A stretch of DNA of 64,000 nucleotides from Polynucleobacter sp. AP-Kolm-20A-A1. GTDB taxonomy: Bacteria > Pseudomonadota > Gammaproteobacteria > Burkholderiales > Burkholderiaceae. A program made the position numbers and the translations under genes. The DNA is taken from assembly GCF_018688315.1 (NCBI RefSeq), contig NZ_CP061315.1, positions 372,001-436,000 on the forward strand, given 5' to 3'. This document shows, piece after piece, positions 33,926 through 41,058 of the stretch (the stretch's first letter is position 1; the number at the start of each line of letters is the position of its first letter). The notes beneath the pieces were generated by a model. It was not told the origin of the DNA. It searched no databases and saw only the letters and a program-made list of their open reading frames with translations.

Positions 33926-33946
33926 TTTATCCTTAAGGAGTGTTTG

Positions 33947-34321
33947 ATGCGTCATTATGAAATCGTCTTTATCGTCCATCCGGACCAAAGCGAGCAAGTA
34001 CCAGCGATGATCGATCGTTACAAAGCTACATTAGCAGCTGCGGGCGGAAAAATTCATCGCATGGAAGACTGGGGTCGTCGTCAGATGGCTTACATGATCG
34101 ACAAACTTGCTAAAGCCCACTACGTTTGCATGAACATTGAGTGCGACCAGAAAACTCTGGAAGAGCTTGAGCATGCGTTCAAATTTAACGATGCTGTTTT
34201 GCGTCACCTCATCATCAAGACTAAGAAAGCTGAAACAGAGCCTTCCATCATGATGAAAGAAGTGCAACGTGAAGAAGCGCGCAAATCAGCTCAATCTGAC
34301 GCTCCTGTAGCGGCAGCCTAA
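33947..34321 (+). CDS. rpsF: 30S ribosomal protein S6
   Basis: Small-subunit protein that binds 16S rRNA together with S18. The N-terminus [25 protein letters not shown] and the segment [22 protein letters not shown] are family signatures. An AAGGAG ribosome site sits before the ATG; a TTG three bases earlier is rejected as the start. The C-terminal tail is Ala/Glu-rich. First gene of rpsF-priB-rpsR-rplI-dnaB. Confidence 0.97.
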
Positions 34322-34380
34322 GTTAGAAATTTGAAGAGGAATACACAGGCTAGAAAACGTATCAGAGAAGCGGAGCGGCG

Positions 34381-34674
34381 TTGAATCATTTCACCCTAAC
34401 TGCAATCTTGGTATCTAAAGACGCGATTCGATTTACACCAGCAGGAATACCGGTGATGCATTGCCAGCTAGAACATAGCGGCCAAGCAAACGAGGTAGGA
34501 GTGGCAAGGAAAATTCAGATGAACGTTGAAGCCATCACGATCGGTCCGATACAAAAGGATTTAGAGCGAATGGATTTAGGAACTGAGGCAGTGTTTGAGG
34601 GATTCTTAGCACCCAAGACTCTACGTAATCAAAGACTTGTTTTCCATATTACCCATATTCAATTGAAAAATTAA
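34381..34674 (+). CDS. priB: primosomal replication protein PriB
   Basis: OB-fold protein that stabilises PriA at stalled forks during replication restart. The 97 residues start at a TTG ([19 protein letters not shown]) with GGAG nine bases upstream. The segment [17 protein letters not shown] matches the PriB/SSB-like family. Its place between rpsF and rpsR is the normal one in beta- and gammaproteobacteria. Confidence 0.92.
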
Positions 34675-34687
34675 AGAGGAAATCATC

Positions 34688-34960
34688 ATGGCGTTTGGAA
34701 AGAAACCCGATTTCAAAAAGAAACCAGCTCAGAACCCATTGTTCAAGCGTAAGCGTTATTGCCGTTTCACTGTTGCTGGCGTAGAACAGATTGACTACAA
34801 AGATGTAGATACATTGAAGGACTTCATTGGCGAAAACGCTAAGATCACTCCTGCTCGTTTGACAGGCACAAAAGCTAAATATCAGCGTCAGTTAGACACT
34901 GCTATCAAGCGTGCTCGTTACTTGGCTTTGTTGCCATTCTCCGATCAACACAAGAAATAA
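34688..34960 (+). CDS. rpsR: 30S ribosomal protein S18
   Basis: Binds the 16S platform with S6. The 90 residues contain the conserved segment [18 protein letters not shown], then [18 protein letters not shown] and the basic [12 protein letters not shown] ending. AAAGAGGAAATC precedes the ATG as a good ribosome site. Confidence 0.97.
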
Positions 34961-34973
34961 TTAGGAGCCCTCA

Positions 34974-35426
34974 ATGCAAATCATTCTTTTAGAAAAAGTA
35001 ACAAACCTGGGCAACCTCGGCGACATCGTTCGCGTTAAAGACGGTTTCGCTCGTAACTTCTTAATCCCACAACGTAAAGCTCGTCGTGCAACTGAAGCAG
35101 CTATCGCTGACTTTGCAGTGCGTCGTGCTGAGTTGGAGAAATTGGCTGCTGAGAAATTGGCTGCCGCTGAAGCAGTTGGCATCAAGCTCAAAGACTTGGT
35201 TCTCGAAATCGGTCAAAAAGCAGGTGTTGACGGTCGTTTGTTTGGTTCTGTAACCAATCACGATATCGCTGATGCGTTGAAAGCTAAAGGCTTCACAATT
35301 GAGAAGTCTTCAGTTCGTTTGCCTACTGGCCCATTGAAAATGGTTGGTGATCACCCTGTAGCGGTTGCTGTTCATACCGACGTAGTTGCAGACATCACTA
35401 TTCGTGTAGTTGGTGAGCAAGCTTAA
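34974..35426 (+). CDS. rplI: 50S ribosomal protein L9
   Basis: Large-subunit protein bound near the L1 stalk. The N-terminal domain [19 protein letters not shown] and [16 protein letters not shown] are clear. The long connecting helix ([20 protein letters not shown]) and the C-terminal domain [16 protein letters not shown] follow. The length of 150 residues is normal. Confidence 0.97.
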
Positions 35427-35450
35427 GTTTTAGAACTGTAAATAAGCCAC

Positions 35451-37946
35451 ATGGCTGAATCCCGTTCACGTTCCGTTACGCTGAATCCCGGCATGATGGG
35501 TCCTGGGGATGCAGTCGTGCAGGCTTTAAAAGTTCCGCCGCATTCTGTAGAAGCCGAGCAATCTTTGCTCGGCGGTCTACTAATCGATAACTCCTCATGG
35601 GATAACCTTGGCGGAGTATTAAACGATAAAGATTTCTATCGCCCTGAACATGCTTTGATCTACAAGGTCATTGCTCGTTTGGTTGGCGACAATCATCCTG
35701 CCGACGTCATCACTGTTTACGATGCCGTTAAATCTGAGCAGGGTGGTGATTTGATCAGCATTGACTACCTCAACTCTTTAGCTCAAAACACCCCAAGCGC
35801 TGCAAACATTAAAGGCTACGCCGACATTGTTCGTGATCGTAGTATTTTGCGTCGCTTGATTGAGGTTTCTGACAGTATTGTTAATTCTGCGTTTGTGCCT
35901 GAAGGCCGAACAGTGAGAACGCTGTTGGATGAAGCGGAGTCTCGTATTTTGCAAATTGGCGAAGAAGGTAGTCGTAAGGCTGACTATCTTGAGATTGAGC
36001 CTTTGCTTCGTTCCGTGGTTGCCCGTATTGATGAGCTATACAACCGCCAAGGCGGTAGCGACATTACAGGTATTGCAACTGGATTTTTAGATTTAGACAA
36101 ACAAACAAGTGGCCTGCAAAAAGGCGACCTGGTGATTGTTGCAGGCCGTCCTTCTATGGGAAAAGCACAACCTCTGGATGCAAAAGTGAAGACGGTTGAT
36201 GGCTGGAAGTTAATGGGTGACTTGCGTTTCGGAGATCGTCTTGCTTCTGTAGATGGTCAACATTCGATGGTTACTGGTATTTATCCGCAGGGCATGAAGC
36301 AGATATATAAAGTGACTTTTTCTGATGGTCGTCAAGCCGAGTGTTGTGATGAACATCTATGGCGTGTCATGTATCGAGAATGGTCTGAGCCTCGCGTCAT
36401 CAACACTGTCCGCTTAATGGAAATGCTGCAATGTGTTCGATATAAAAATAGACTATGGATTGATCCAGTCTCGGGCGATTTTGGCCACTCGAATGCATTG
36501 CCAATTCATCCGTGGGTTTTGGGTGCATTGCTGGGCGACGGAACATTGGCGCTATCTCATAGTAGTGTGATGTTTTCGACTAAATCACCTGAGCTAGTTG
36601 AGCGTATCAATATGCTTGCGGGTTATGAGATGGAGCTAGTGCATGCGAATGCATACGACTGGAGACTCGTCTCGAAAGAAAGAATTGCTGCTAATGGTCA
36701 AAGAGCTGCTGTAAAGACAAATCACTTTAGGGCTGCTCTTGATGAGTTAGGCGTACTAGGTTGCAGAAGTTTTGATAAATATATTCCTGCCACTTATCTT
36801 GAGGCCAATAAAACTTCTCGTCTCGCATTATTTCAAGGTTTGATGGATACGGATGGCTGGATTGAGAAGTGGGGTTCCATTCGCTTCTGTACGGCAAGTA
36901 AGCAATTGTCTGAAGATGTGGCAACTCTAGCCAGATCTTTGGGCGGCTTTTGCTCAATAACGCAGAAGCAATCTAGCTACACCTATAAAGGTGAAAAGAA
37001 GCAAGGTCGCTTATCTTATGTTTTAAATATGAGTTTTGGCCCTGGTTTTGAGGCTTTCACTTTGCCTGAAAAGAACGAAAGACTGAGGGTAAGCTGGGAT
37101 CGTCAGCGCAGACTTTCATTTCAGAGTATTGAGCCTTCCAGGATGTCTGAGGCGCAATGTATTTCAGTTAGCCACCCCCAAAGAACTTATGTAACGAATG
37201 ATTATGTCGTTACTCATAACACTGCATTTGCTTTAAACATTGCCGAGAACGTTGCATTGGCAGAAGGTTTGCCTGTTGTCGTGTTCTCGATGGAGATGTC
37301 AGGCGAGCAATTGGCTGCCCGTTTATTGGGTTCAGTAGGGCGCGTAGACCAGGGTCGTATGCGTACTGGTAAGCTGCAAGACGATGAGTGGCCGCGCGTT
37401 ACTGATGCGATTGCCCGTTTGAGTAATACCCAAATTTTGATTGATGAGACTGGCTCTTTATCTAGTCTTGAGTTGCGTGCCCGTGCACGTCGAATTGCCA
37501 GAAACTTTGGTGGCACACTTGGTCTCGTAGTAATTGACTACTTGCAGTTGATGAGTGGTTCTGGCTCTGAGAACCGTGCAACAGAGATTTCTGAAATCTC
37601 TCGCTCGCTCAAGTCACTTGCAAAAGAATTGCAGTGCCCAGTAGTTGCACTCTCTCAGTTAAACCGTGGCCTTGAGCAACGTCCTAACAAACGTCCAATC
37701 ATGTCTGACTTGCGTGAATCCGGCGCTATTGAGCAAGATGCCGACTTAATTATGTTTATCTATCGTGATGAGGTTTATCACCCTGATACCACCACCGATA
37801 AAGGTGTTGCTGAAATTATCATTGGTAAGCAACGTAACGGCCCAATCGGCACAGTGCGCTTAAGTTGGCAAGGCCCGTATACCAAGTTTGATAACTTAGC
37901 GATGGGATCCATCGGATACTCTTCTGGTGGTTACGAACCGTTCTGA
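35451..37946 (+). CDS. dnaB: replicative DNA helicase DnaB with an in-frame intein
   Basis: Hexameric 5'-3' helicase of the replication fork. The N-terminal domain (PPHSVEAEQSLLGGLLIDN) spans residues about 20-130. The RecA-like ATPase begins near 195. Walker A is split: GRPSMGK ends at residue 238 and T-AFALNIAEN resumes at 591, with a 352-residue intein between. Removing it gives a normal 479-residue DnaB with GRPSMGKT. Later motifs are VIDYLQLMSGSG (Walker B), ALSQLNRGLEQRPNKRP and SDLRESGAIEQDADLIMFIYRDE. The unspliced precursor lacks an intact ATP site, so helicase activity must depend on splicing. It is last in the S6 operon, 24 bases after rplI. Confidence 0.96.
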   Translation: MAESRSRSVTLNPGMMGPGDAVVQALKVPPHSVEAEQSLLGGLLIDNSSWDNLGGVLNDKDFYRPEHALIYKVIARLVGDNHPADVITVYDAVKSEQGGDLISIDYLNSLAQNTPSAANIKGYADIVRDRSILRRLIEVSDSIVNSAFVPEGRTVRTLLDEAESRILQIGEEGSRKADYLEIEPLLRSVVARIDELYNRQGGSDITGIATGFLDLDKQTSGLQKGDLVIVAGRPSMGKAQPLDAKVKTVDGWKLMGDLRFGDRLASVDGQHSMVTGIYPQGMKQIYKVTFSDGRQAECCDEHLWRVMYREWSEPRVINTVRLMEMLQCVRYKNRLWIDPVSGDFGHSNALPIHPWVLGALLGDGTLALSHSSVMFSTKSPELVERINMLAGYEMELVHANAYDWRLVSKERIAANGQRAAVKTNHFRAALDELGVLGCRSFDKYIPATYLEANKTSRLALFQGLMDTDGWIEKWGSIRFCTASKQLSEDVATLARSLGGFCSITQKQSSYTYKGEKKQGRLSYVLNMSFGPGFEAFTLPEKNERLRVSWDRQRRLSFQSIEPSRMSEAQCISVSHPQRTYVTNDYVVTHNTAFALNIAENVALAEGLPVVVFSMEMSGEQLAARLLGSVGRVDQGRMRTGKLQDDEWPRVTDAIARLSNTQILIDETGSLSSLELRARARRIARNFGGTLGLVVIDYLQLMSGSGSENRATEISEISRSLKSLAKELQCPVVALSQLNRGLEQRPNKRPIMSDLRESGAIEQDADLIMFIYRDEVYHPDTTTDKGVAEIIIGKQRNGPIGTVRLSWQGPYTKFDNLAMGSIGYSSGGYEPF
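36165..37220 (+). mobile_element. class 3 intein with LAGLIDADG homing endonuclease domain, in the DnaB P-loop
   Basis: A 352-residue insertion, DnaB residues 239-590. It begins with Ala1 (AQPLDAKVKTVDGWKLMGDL, block A), so it has no Cys/Ser/Thr nucleophile at position 1. Block B is ECCDEHLWRV with His64 and Trp66. Block F is AQCISVSHPQRTYVTNDY with Cys332. Block G is VVTHN, with Thr350, His351 and Asn352, followed by extein Thr. The Trp-Cys-Thr triplet plus Ala1 defines the class 3 mechanism, in which the block F Cys attacks first. Endonuclease motifs: LGALLGDGTL at 119-128 and LFQGLMDTDGW at 222-232, both with their acidic residue. Both splicing and homing parts look intact. Confidence 0.93.
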
Positions 37947-37975
37947 GAAAAAAAGAAATATAAAAACAGATCAAT

Positions 37976-38002
37976 AAAAAGCCTCGCAACGCGAGGCTTT
38001 TT
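37976..38002. terminator. intrinsic terminator after dnaB
   Basis: A 12-bp perfect inverted repeat (AAAAAGCCTCGC / GCGAGGCTTTTT) with a 3-base loop and a T run. It ends the S6-dnaB operon and also serves the convergent small-protein gene. Confidence 0.9.
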
Positions 38003-38033
38003 TAATGCTTAAAATAAATTTACTCAAACGAAT

Positions 38034-38297
38034 TTATTTCTCGCCTTCACACTTTTTGATAGATGCGGCTTTTGCTGCGCCATAGAGTGGCTTGCCGTCT
38101 TTGCTAACTGCTTTTGCTTCGCAATCGTTAGGCTTGGCATCACCCATACATTTCTTCACGGAGGCATCTTTAGCGGCGCCATAAATTGGCTTACCGTCTT
38201 TACTAACTGCTTTTGCTTCGCATTCTGCCTGAGAGAGCGCAAATGCTGGGGCTGTAAAGCTAAGGGCAAGACCTAAAGCAATAATGATTTTTTTCAT
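38034..38297 (-). CDS. small exported protein with two 33-residue Cys-bearing repeats, PsiF-like
   Basis: An 87-residue protein with a signal peptide (MKKIIIALGLALSFTAPAFA). The mature part is two copies of a 33-residue unit, CEAKAVSKDGKPxYGAAK followed by xASxKKC, starting at Cys26 and Cys59. Each copy holds two Cys 24 residues apart, suggesting one disulfide per repeat in the periplasm. The pattern Cys-x2-Ala/Lys-rich-x-Lys-x-Cys resembles the PsiF repeat family, known as a phosphate-starvation-induced protein in E. coli, but its function is not known. The two copies are also very similar at the DNA level, indicating recent or constrained duplication. A good AAGGAG ribosome site precedes the ATG. 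Confidence 0.8.
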   Translation of the reverse strand: MKKIIIALGLALSFTAPAFALSQAECEAKAVSKDGKPIYGAAKDASVKKCMGDAKPNDCEAKAVSKDGKPLYGAAKAASIKKCEGEK

Positions 38298-38458
38298 CTG
38301 AATTCTCCTTGGTTGAATGATTTAACTATATCTATTTATAAGTCTTAAAACGATTATTTATGAACAATCGATAGGTTGATATTAGCCTAAGGGTTAATAG
38401 ATATTAACTCCATGGGGAATTATGATTTGATTAAATTAACATTAAATAAAGACTAGAT
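38298..38458. promoter_or_regulatory. AT-rich divergent intergenic region
   Basis: A 161-base region between the divergent PsiF-like gene and the autotransporter gene. It is strongly AT-rich, with several TATA- and TTAA-rich strings (for example TATCTATTTATAAG near 38326 and TTAACATTAAATAAAG near 38436), compatible with two back-to-back promoters. No single pair of hexamers stands out. Confidence 0.35.
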
Positions 38459-40516
38459 ATGACTCTATTCAGCCGGCTTGTATTTGTACGGTTTCTTGCA
38501 AGCTCGTTTTTGGCATTTATTTTTTTTATTCCCAGTCTTTCCATCGCGGCGAATGGGAGCTGTCTTGTAACAGCCCCGACCCCCGTTCCGGTTGGTGCTA
38601 ATCCTTATGTACCAGTAAATGGACAAACTGTTGAATGCTCGCCCGGTGGAGCAGCAGCCACTGCTGGCGTGATATCCGCGCCAAATACTACGACGCAAGG
38701 AAATGGGGTAAATGTATTAATTAATGCAACCACACAGCTCACTATTGATGGTTCAACTGTGGGTCTGGGAAGTGGTGCTGTTGTCAATAACAATGGCTCA
38801 TTGGATACCAGTTCTTTTTATAACGGTTATGGTATTTCGGCTGGCGCTAATGGTCGCTCTCAGGCTGGTGGTAATGAGTTGAATAACAACGGAAGTATTG
38901 TTACAAAGGGTGGAAATGCTGCGGGTATTTACATTAGTGCCACAAATGCTACTTCCATTGGAAACAGCATCTTAAATGCAGGATCTATCAACACGTCAGG
39001 CGCAAATGCTGCTGGCATTCGCCTTAATTCCGGATCTAAAACTGGCGTTAATTCGATTGTCAATTCGGGAACCATTTCTACAGCGGGCGCATCTGCGAAT
39101 GGCATTGATATTTTGGGCTCAGCACAAGTAACCGTTGAAAATACGAATACGATTACGGCTTCCGGCGCCAATTCGTTTGGTATTTACAACCTTGGAAACC
39201 TTACCACTTTAAATAATTCCCAGGGAGGCTCTACTCCTCTGACATATTCTGGGGTGCTGCCATTAAATTACAACGTTATCGTCACCAATCCAACAACTTA
39301 CGGCAAGTTAGATGCGTCGGCTGGAACGGTTTCAGGTGTTATGAATTTCGGTATTAAATCTGGCTCAACTTTAACTAGTGGCACAACGTATTCCACAGTT
39401 TTATCCGGCATCAAGATTAATAACCTTGGCAATTCTTATGGTACTTTTGGAGCTTATCAGTGGGCGTTAGTGCATCGTGTAGGCGCCTCTGCAAATCAAA
39501 CAGACTTGGTGATTCTCAATACACCGCAGCCAACATTGGCCGCCTTAGAGACTGTCTTGGCAGCCAACTCTTATTTGATTGCTCCAATTTATTACGATAC
39601 TCAAACATCATTGGTTTCGCTGGGTAATACGCTACAAGGCTTATTTGCAATGCAGTCAGCAGGCGTTGTGAATGGGATGTCCTATGACTGTTCGCTATTT
39701 GGCGCCAATAATTTTTGCGTTTCTGCGGGCGGTCGCTATACCAACGTAAGCACTTATCCAGATAACACTACAAGTGCATTGTTGATCGGAGCTTATCGTT
39801 TCTCATCAAGCTTGCGAGTCGGTGGCTATCTTGATCAAAATCTTTCACAGAGCACTCCTGGTGGAGTTGCTCAGTTAGGTAATGCCACTCCGATGGTTGG
39901 TGTATTTGGCGTGTGGTCACAAAACCCAGATGGCACGGGTGTTGAGGCAAAAGTTTCAGCAGGTTATGCCACCAAGGGTGCCACATTAACTCGTCCAGTA
40001 GTCGGCGTATCTGAGGCAGGCTCTGGATCGACCAATTTGACTGCACAAGGCGTTCAAGCTCAGCTGAAGTATGGATTTGCCGTAGGGAATAAATCAGTAG
40101 TGTCACCTTATGCAGGTATGCGCTATATGGTTGGTGGAATGGGTGGTTACAGTGAGGCTCAATCAAGCACAGTTTCTAGTCCGCTAACCTATAGCTCTAT
40201 TAGTAATTACACAACTACTGCATTAGCTGGATTAATTGCTAATCATCGCTTAAGTGAAAAAGTCATGTTGGTTGGTAGTGCTGGCGCCGAAAAAGATGTC
40301 AATGCCAATGTTGGAAATTTAATCACTAGTGGCAATGGTGATTTTAATATTGCCATGAATAATAACTATCGCAGCTTACGTCCAACAGCTAGTCTCGCAG
40401 CGTTTTATGATTTAAGCGCAAAAGAAAGACTTGGGTTAACTGGCATTTATCGCCAAGAGTCTTATCAAGCTGTGACATCAACTACAGTGTTGGCTACCTA
40501 CACAGTAGGTCTCTAG
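38459..40516 (+). CDS. type V autotransporter with beta-helical passenger
   Basis: Predicted surface protein of 685 residues. A long N-terminal signal region (MTLFSRLVFVRFLASSFLAF, cleavage near SIAANG) is followed by a short passenger. Residues about 100-260 hold about five imperfect repeats of the type LNNNGSIVTKGGNAAGIYIS and IVNSGTISTAGASANGIDIL, which predict beta-helix rungs rich in Asn, Gly and Ser. From about residue 400 alternating hydrophobic strands (FCVSAGGRYTNV, VSPYAGMRYMVGGMG, TALAGLIANHRLS) form an autotransporter beta-barrel ending ATYTVGL. Two Cys pairs are present. The ribosome site is weak. It ends six bases before the convergent nlpC-family gene with no terminator between. 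Confidence 0.82.
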   Translation: MTLFSRLVFVRFLASSFLAFIFFIPSLSIAANGSCLVTAPTPVPVGANPYVPVNGQTVECSPGGAAATAGVISAPNTTTQGNGVNVLINATTQLTIDGSTVGLGSGAVVNNNGSLDTSSFYNGYGISAGANGRSQAGGNELNNNGSIVTKGGNAAGIYISATNATSIGNSILNAGSINTSGANAAGIRLNSGSKTGVNSIVNSGTISTAGASANGIDILGSAQVTVENTNTITASGANSFGIYNLGNLTTLNNSQGGSTPLTYSGVLPLNYNVIVTNPTTYGKLDASAGTVSGVMNFGIKSGSTLTSGTTYSTVLSGIKINNLGNSYGTFGAYQWALVHRVGASANQTDLVILNTPQPTLAALETVLAANSYLIAPIYYDTQTSLVSLGNTLQGLFAMQSAGVVNGMSYDCSLFGANNFCVSAGGRYTNVSTYPDNTTSALLIGAYRFSSSLRVGGYLDQNLSQSTPGGVAQLGNATPMVGVFGVWSQNPDGTGVEAKVSAGYATKGATLTRPVVGVSEAGSGSTNLTAQGVQAQLKYGFAVGNKSVVSPYAGMRYMVGGMGGYSEAQSSTVSSPLTYSSISNYTTTALAGLIANHRLSEKVMLVGSAGAEKDVNANVGNLITSGNGDFNIAMNNNYRSLRPTASLAAFYDLSAKERLGLTGIYRQESYQAVTSTTVLATYTVGL

Positions 40517-40521
40517 TCGTC

Positions 40522-41058
40522 TTATTGGGGCGTGAAACGTCGCGCCTCAGTGAACTTCGCCGCCCAGTATGGTGAGGTAATGTAGTCAAGGCGCACCGTT
40601 CCGCCAGCGCTAGGTGCGTGCACAAATCTGCCTTGCCCCACATAGATTCCTGCATGAGAGTATTTTTCTCCAGTGGTGTTAAAGAACACTAAATCACCAG
40701 GCGCAGGAGGTTGGCCTTCGATGCTTACACCTTTGGTGCTCATCAATTGAATCGTGCGCGGTAGTTTGATCCCTGCCGCTTTGTTATAGACGTAAACAAT
40801 GAGGCCACTACAGTCAAAACCGCCTTTAGGGGTATTGCCACCATAGCGGTAAGGTACATCTACCAAACCCACTGCCGCAATAGAAATATCCTCGGTGCCA
40901 ACACTGGTGTCTTGCTTGAATTGAGAAACTCTAGAGGAGGATCCTGATTTGCCGCCGAATGTGCTGCATCCACTTAGGATGAGTAAGCTACAAATAAAAA
41001 TGCCGCACCCCAGGAGAGTGCGGCATGAGAGAGGTTGCTTAGAGTGCGTCAGCAGCAT
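40522..41058 (-). CDS. NlpC/P60-family lipoprotein endopeptidase
   Basis: Predicted peptidoglycan hydrolase of the Spr/MepS type that cuts peptide cross-links or stems. A lipoprotein signal peptide ends at the lipobox LSGC. The NlpC/P60 domain has catalytic Cys in GGFDCSGLIVYVYNK, His in KYSHAGIYVGQG and the third polar residue around VHAPSAGG. I choose the ATG at 41058, which overlaps the phoH stop; the frame extends to a GTG at 41082 without a ribosome site. The signal-peptide codons coincide with a terminator-like hairpin (41000-41026). Confidence 0.88.
   Translation of the reverse strand: MLLTHSKQPLSCRTLLGCGIFICSLLILSGCSTFGGKSGSSSRVSQFKQDTSVGTEDISIAAVGLVDVPYRYGGNTPKGGFDCSGLIVYVYNKAAGIKLPRTIQLMSTKGVSIEGQPPAPGDLVFFNTTGEKYSHAGIYVGQGRFVHAPSAGGTVRLDYITSPYWAAKFTEARRFTPQ
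41000..41026 (-). terminator. intrinsic terminator-like hairpin inside the nlpC coding region
   Basis: Read on the minus strand: a 9-bp perfect stem ATGCCGCAC/GTGCGGCAT, a 9-base loop, then TTTTATTTG. It begins 13 bases after the phoH stop. It also encodes the hydrophobic part of the downstream lipoprotein signal peptide, so it may end the phoH transcript or attenuate nlpC expression. Confidence 0.65.

Follow-up and report, generated by a model that had tools for sequence, protein, structure and literature searches.

In the literature that we consulted, the class 3 inteins of the replicative helicase DnaB are mostly mycobacterial mini-inteins. For example, DnaBi1 of Mycobacterium smegmatis (6bs8) lies at DnaB site b, between the Lys and the Ser/Thr of the P-loop, where the P-loop Ser doubles as the catalytic +1 residue and oxidants inhibit splicing (PMC6195587), which is also inhibited by zinc (PMC7360933). 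The DnaB1 intein of M. chimaera (6rix/6riy) is of class 3 too, and its chains of 145-146 amino acids (aa) are too short for an endonuclease. PI-SceI, the intein of yeast VMA1, joins a splicing domain to an inserted LAGLIDADG endonuclease, and is a class 1 intein with Cys1 and an extra DNA-recognition region. In this study, we analyzed a stretch of 64,000 nucleotides from the freshwater bacterium Polynucleobacter sp. AP-Kolm-20A-A1 (contig NZ_CP061315.1, positions 372,001 to 436,000; hereafter the window). We believe that its dnaB, the only replicative helicase gene found in the genome, very probably carries, at the Walker A Lys|Thr, a class 3 intein that is bifunctional and includes a LAGLIDADG homing endonuclease, with splicing and homing as predicted activities. 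It would be a full-length and apparently mobile member of the group.

The window intein shares its class and its Lys|Ser/Thr insertion point with DnaBi1, which differs in its length (139 aa), its lack of an endonuclease, its +1 Ser and an Asp at position 7 of block B (B:7), where the window intein has Cys; the two are 28% identical in the aligned part. The identity to the M. chimaera intein is 26%. PI-SceI has the same two-domain build and aligns with the AlphaFold2 (AF2) model of the window intein over 318-339 residues, but it sits in another host protein and is only 17-20% identical. The insertion site, the class and the phage link have already been published (site b in mycobacterial DnaB, M. 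smegmatis DnaBi1), and a similar survey of empty beside occupied intein alleles exists for Halobacteria (PMC4071816). Our literature search, with most subscription journals outside its reach, found no report on inteins of Polynucleobacter. What is new here is natural-history evidence, drawn from genome comparison, that points to homing within this genus.

The insert in dnaB

The dnaB frame (35451-37946, 831 codons by translation; all features below lie on the forward strand) closes the gene order rpsF-priB-rpsR-rplI-dnaB at 33944-37946. The initial annotation had placed a 352-codon in-frame insert between the P-loop Lys and Thr, and translation bears this out exactly, at 36165-37220 within GRPSMGKT. 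The N-extein (35451-36164, 238 codons; DnaB N-terminal domain, TIGR00665) ends in AGRPSMGK, with the Walker A Lys codon at 36162-36164. The insert begins AQPLDAKV, ends VVTHN and is followed by TAFALN, the start of the C-extein (37221-37943, 241 codons, stop codon 37944-37946), whose first residue, the +1 Thr (37221-37223), is the Walker A Thr. Without the insert, a protein of 479 aa remains that reads as DnaB. The GC content is 0.44 in the insert and 0.47-0.48 in the exteins, and because this contrast, like that in third-position GC, is small, composition alone is hardly revealing. A profile search of the genome (1.92 Mb, one contig) found a single dnaB, matched in two pieces that flank the insert, and therefore the sole replicative helicase found must be made by splicing. 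A third DnaB_C match, weaker yet above the cut-off, was considered as a second dnaB and rejected as RadA (TIGR00416). Other LAGLIDADG_3 matches in the genome were absent at an E value of 0.1.

Class 3 signature and fold

Position 1 of the intein is Ala, neither Cys nor Ser, and Ala1 is found in all 45 rows of alignment A1, which comprises the window and 44 of the 78 loci retrieved by pattern search. Trp66 (B:12, 36360-36362, the W of the class 3 WCT set), Cys332 (F:4, 37158-37160) and Thr350 (G:5) are invariant in this alignment, and Trp66 aligns with Trp67 of the M. smegmatis DnaB intein. By translation and alignment, block B also holds His64 (B:10, 36354-36356), and block G ends in Thr350-His351-Asn352 (37212-37220). 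The +1 residue is Thr, and Ser or Thr at +1 is a criterion of class 3 (PMC5222942). The AF2 model aligns with 6bs8 and 6rix over the splicing (HINT) domain, whose N-terminal part (residues ~1-105, 36165-36479) and C-terminal part (residues ~301-352, 37065-37220) have approximate limits set by hand. The same holds for the endonuclease domain between them (residues ~106-300, 36480-37064), which matches PI-SceI and PF14528 (above the cut-off; PF05204 falls just below). Its two LAGLIDADG motifs are LGALLGDG from residue 119 (36519-36542), with Asp125, and LFQGLMDTDGW from residue 222 (36828-36860), with Asp230. Alignment and modeled fold thus support the assignment to class 3 and the presence of an inserted LAGLIDADG endonuclease; the missing position-1 nucleophile, the class 3 residue set and the two intact motifs, all read earlier from the letters of the window, stood up to this comparison.

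Proposed mechanism

By analogy with DnaBi1 and the M. chimaera intein, Cys332 would attack the Lys-Ala1 peptide bond, aided by His64 and Thr350, and form a branched thioester; its role as branch-point nucleophile is predicted by homology to Cys118 of DnaBi1 (PMC6195587). The N-extein would then be transferred to Thr+1, Asn352 would cyclize and free the intein, and an acyl shift would restore GRPSMGKT. The endonuclease, for its part, would cut the conserved P-loop DNA of dnaB alleles that lack the intein, and the intein would be copied in by repair. Because the Walker A pair is made up of Lys(-1) and Thr(+1), the ATP site would exist only after splicing. Splicing would thus be expected to gate the helicase, as follows from the geometry of the insert; M. 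smegmatis offers a precedent (PMC6195587). Alternatively, splicing may be fast and constitutive.

Occupied and empty sites in the genus

The insert was searched for in 186 genomes of the genus, and 76 matched. Seventy of these matches, the window's own included, were full-length with 75-100% identity; four were larger DnaBs with 40-41% identity. The remaining two were a fragment in G149 and, in G052, a 31% match that lies in a different protein. When the joined flanks served as the query, 95 genomes showed an uninterrupted site (hand count from the table). For occupancy, we took all genus genomes that were ≥90% complete and ≤5% contaminated (144), of which 142 gave a dnaB row; G119 (weak dnaB match only) and G121 (no match) were left out. 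Among these 142 species-level genomes, 64 carry the insert and 78 have an exactly empty site, which answers the earlier suggestion that dnaB of relatives be compared for empty sites. All 64 inserts keep the AQP start, the two Cys of block B, the Trp and the terminal THN. Sixty-one belong to the intact class, and 60 of these, the window included, keep both endonuclease aspartates; in the otherwise intact L272, DTNG replaces DTDG, which is perhaps an early endonuclease loss. The other three have decayed endonucleases (LLGSI, LLGCI and LLGSV, without DTDG) and keep their splicing residues.

The nearest extein to that of the window (G037, also L088) is empty, with the same GRPSMGK|T junction. The DNA identity between the two is 96.7% upstream, 95.8% in the N-extein and 92.0% in the C-extein, and the synonymous divergence (dS) of the exteins is 0.31. 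This pair is one of 14 discordant sister pairs among 46. On the extein tree, which was made by a quick method and has flagged long branches mostly outside the inner clade, the inner clade of 101 rows around the window (57 inserts) needs 30 occupancy changes versus 33.1 after shuffling (standard deviation (sd) 2.5), and 15.6% of shuffles are as low, so that occupancy is near-random there. In the 40-row clade of the window, 12 changes compare with 13.7 after shuffling. A first test on 67 rows, the 30 nearest empty rows and the insert-bearing loci found by 8-residue patterns, had given 20 changes versus 22.2; it was replaced because its rows were picked by closeness to the window. Occupied and empty dnaB side by side in one genus are what would be expected of a still-moving element, and we regard the intein as apparently mobile.

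Several inserts of other kinds were seen in the genus. Three of the four larger DnaBs were read (L199, L200 and L201, from G042, G161 and G021; the fourth is in G147). Their frames of 966-971 codons hold two inserts each: first a P-loop class 3 intein with decayed endonuclease motifs, and further down the C-extein a short, class 1-like insert (Cys start, HN end before Ser). Three further genomes (G156, G144 and G054) have a 631-codon frame with an empty P-loop site; in the one that was read for it (L203, from G156), a short class 1-like insert lies at a second DnaB site. The match in G052 (L202) is a class 3-like intein of 31% identity in the P-loop of a protein that by eye is terminase-like, between GK and Ser, and dnaB of this genome is empty at the P-loop site.

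Lateral movement and selection

In four genomes (L005, L013, L014 and L037, on the same contigs as L253, L267, L270 and L254, respectively), the intein dS was 0.10-0.16 versus an extein dS of 0.47-0.92, in all six pairs. In the five plotted pairs among them, third-position differences fall at the N junction and stay low until about 30 codons past the start of the C-extein. Such limits would be expected from movement of the insert with a short co-converted tract, and not of a long segment. Extein comparisons were ungapped, and pairs with a nonsynonymous divergence (dN) of the exteins above 0.15 were dropped as indel artefacts; the low intein/extein ratios of L250, L251, L205, L289 and L291 were set aside for this reason. 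Of the 1488 usable pairs, 18 had an intein dS below half the extein dS with an extein dS above 0.4, mostly among L253, L254, L267, L270, L271 and L279. In most pairs the direction was the opposite, with the intein dS above that of the exteins (medians 1.66 versus 1.24), and pairs with the more similar intein were the exception. Such pairs are few. Gain or loss of the insert is frequent in the genus, and lateral movement is added to it.

The median dN/dS over 1770 pairs of 60 inserts, many of them saturated and mutually non-independent, was 0.040 in the splicing domain, 0.049 in the endonuclease and 0.022 in the exteins. In the 140 pairs with dS below 1 throughout, the values were 0.038, 0.047 and 0.008, respectively, and leaving out L250 and L251 changed the medians little. 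Constraint on the endonuclease is thus about equal to that on the splicing domain, and the endonuclease is under purifying selection. The initial annotation had raised the possibility of an active homing element, which is made more probable by the empty sister alleles, by the near-random occupancy within the inner clade and by this constraint.

Some results weigh against a mobile class 3 intein. The whole 142-row tree needs at least 34 occupancy changes versus 46.9 after shuffling (sd 3.2), with 0 of 1000 shuffles as low; occupancy on this scale is non-random and partly inherited, including whole empty clades, and tree changes cannot separate gain from loss. The window intein is without a recent donor in the set, since its lowest dS to 59 others is 0.85; a donor was also sought by comparison with L088, where third-position divergence is raised just after the site (0.37), and none matched. 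In the relatives with decayed motifs, which were intended as a control, two of the three pairs gave an endonuclease dN/dS of 0.24 (the other being saturated), and the endonuclease dN was 0.16-0.62, versus 0.11-0.17 in three pairs and 0.08-0.22, respectively, in the splicing domain. The splicing domain is raised too, and the contrast is only moderate. Finally, the WCT set gives the class by homology, and a class 2-like direct attack by Thr+1 would be compatible with the sequence.

We considered that the intein splices while its endonuclease is no longer active, the scatter being due to losses long ago and to dnaB segments exchanged by homologous recombination instead of to homing. The phylogenetic signal of the whole tree speaks for this, as do the three relatives that lost the motifs and kept the splicing residues, and the DTNG of L272. 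However, both aspartates persist in nearly all intact-class rows, dN/dS differs little between the endonuclease and the splicing domain, and low divergence in the plotted pairs is confined to the insert and about 30 C-extein codons. We consider this explanation unlikely.

Cysteines of block B

Another explanation, somewhat less probable again, is a regulated switch in which Cys332, perhaps together with Cys60 or Cys61, responds to redox or zinc and holds back helicase activation under stress. The same-site DnaBi1 is inhibited by peroxide and zinc through its block F Cys (PMC6195587, PMC7360933), and both Cys60 and Cys61 are present in 64/64 insert-bearing genus rows. Their conservation in A1 was discounted: ECCDEHLW had itself served as a search pattern, which makes this conservation circular in part. 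Cys61 (B:7, 36345-36347 by alignment) occupies the site of Thr in the class 1 TxxH motif and of Asp62 in DnaBi1. Characterized class 3 inteins have Gly or Asp at B:7, and AceL NrdHF has Ser (PMC7891396). Among the 120 matches listed of 5187, 99 could be parsed (21 could not): B:7 is Cys in 93, the other 6 have Thr or Ser there, and 8 have Ala or Val at position 60. This variation disfavors a disulfide role, and the alternation of Cys, Thr and Ser at B:7 would suit hydrogen bonding better. Moreover, empty and occupied alleles coexist among close relatives, which argues against a needed regulatory role.

A more specific idea, which we regard as a long shot, is a built-in latch, responsive to redox or metal, that Cys61 forms with Cys332; homology predicts that Cys61 lies next to the scissile bond. 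A still-mobile parasite would then also redox-gate the only replicative helicase of its host. If true, this would be an intein caught between parasitism and domestication. As explanations of the insert, a normal stretch of DnaB or an artefact of assembly are practically inconceivable, being refuted by the exact empty alleles, by the 70 full-length matches in the genus and by the intein fold of the model.

The genus lends itself well to the study of the homing cycle in nature. Occupied, empty and three decayed-endonuclease states in 142 genomes make stages of the homing cycle comparable in one gene. The window and G037, like other sister pairs, would allow the cost and any regulation of splicing to be compared in dnaB backgrounds that are closely related. 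Judging by strain names, some members are isolates.

Relatives outside the genus

Same-site DnaB inteins of 342-370 aa with the same signature occur in other Burkholderiales (Burkholderia, Trinickia, Paraburkholderia, Limnobacter and others), with 47-71% identity to the window intein. Of 399 genomes drawn from the order, 30 match at all, many weakly, and six are from the genus itself. Similar same-site inserts are found in a few metagenome-assembled genomes (MAGs) of other phyla. Two near-full-length DnaB inteins have damaged LAGLIDADG motifs and are apparently losing the endonuclease: L068 from Trinickia soli (DTNG) and L073 from a Paraburkholderia MAG (GDS, DTCG).

Tori and Perler are said to have proposed a phage link of class 3 inteins in 2011. 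In this study, 669 of 50,697 phage records matched the insert, all below 60% identity. We inspected 23 phage and viral loci (5 of 20 listed phage records and 18 of 80 viral-contig loci); all 23 have a Walker A-like GK before the insert and THN|T at its end, and 22 have H.W in block B. Phage inteins inserted at GK|T of the Walker A motif in terminase, helicase and DnaB ATPases share the GK...THN|T frame with the window intein, but they reach at most 42% identity among the best rows, sit in varied host proteins and do not always have Ala at position 1. This context fits a phage link, and transfer has been argued before (PMC5050341). An intein relative of 37% identity was also seen in plasmids of Enterobacter, Citrobacter, Klebsiella and an uncultured bacterium (H21-H25), and the annotated feature in H21 is traD.

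Downstream of dnaB, the region 37947-40600 is far less similar to G037 than the upstream side is (68% identity across 2 kb versus 96.7%), although two short pieces match better. An autotransporter beta-domain (PF03797) lies within this diverged region, at 38459-40516.
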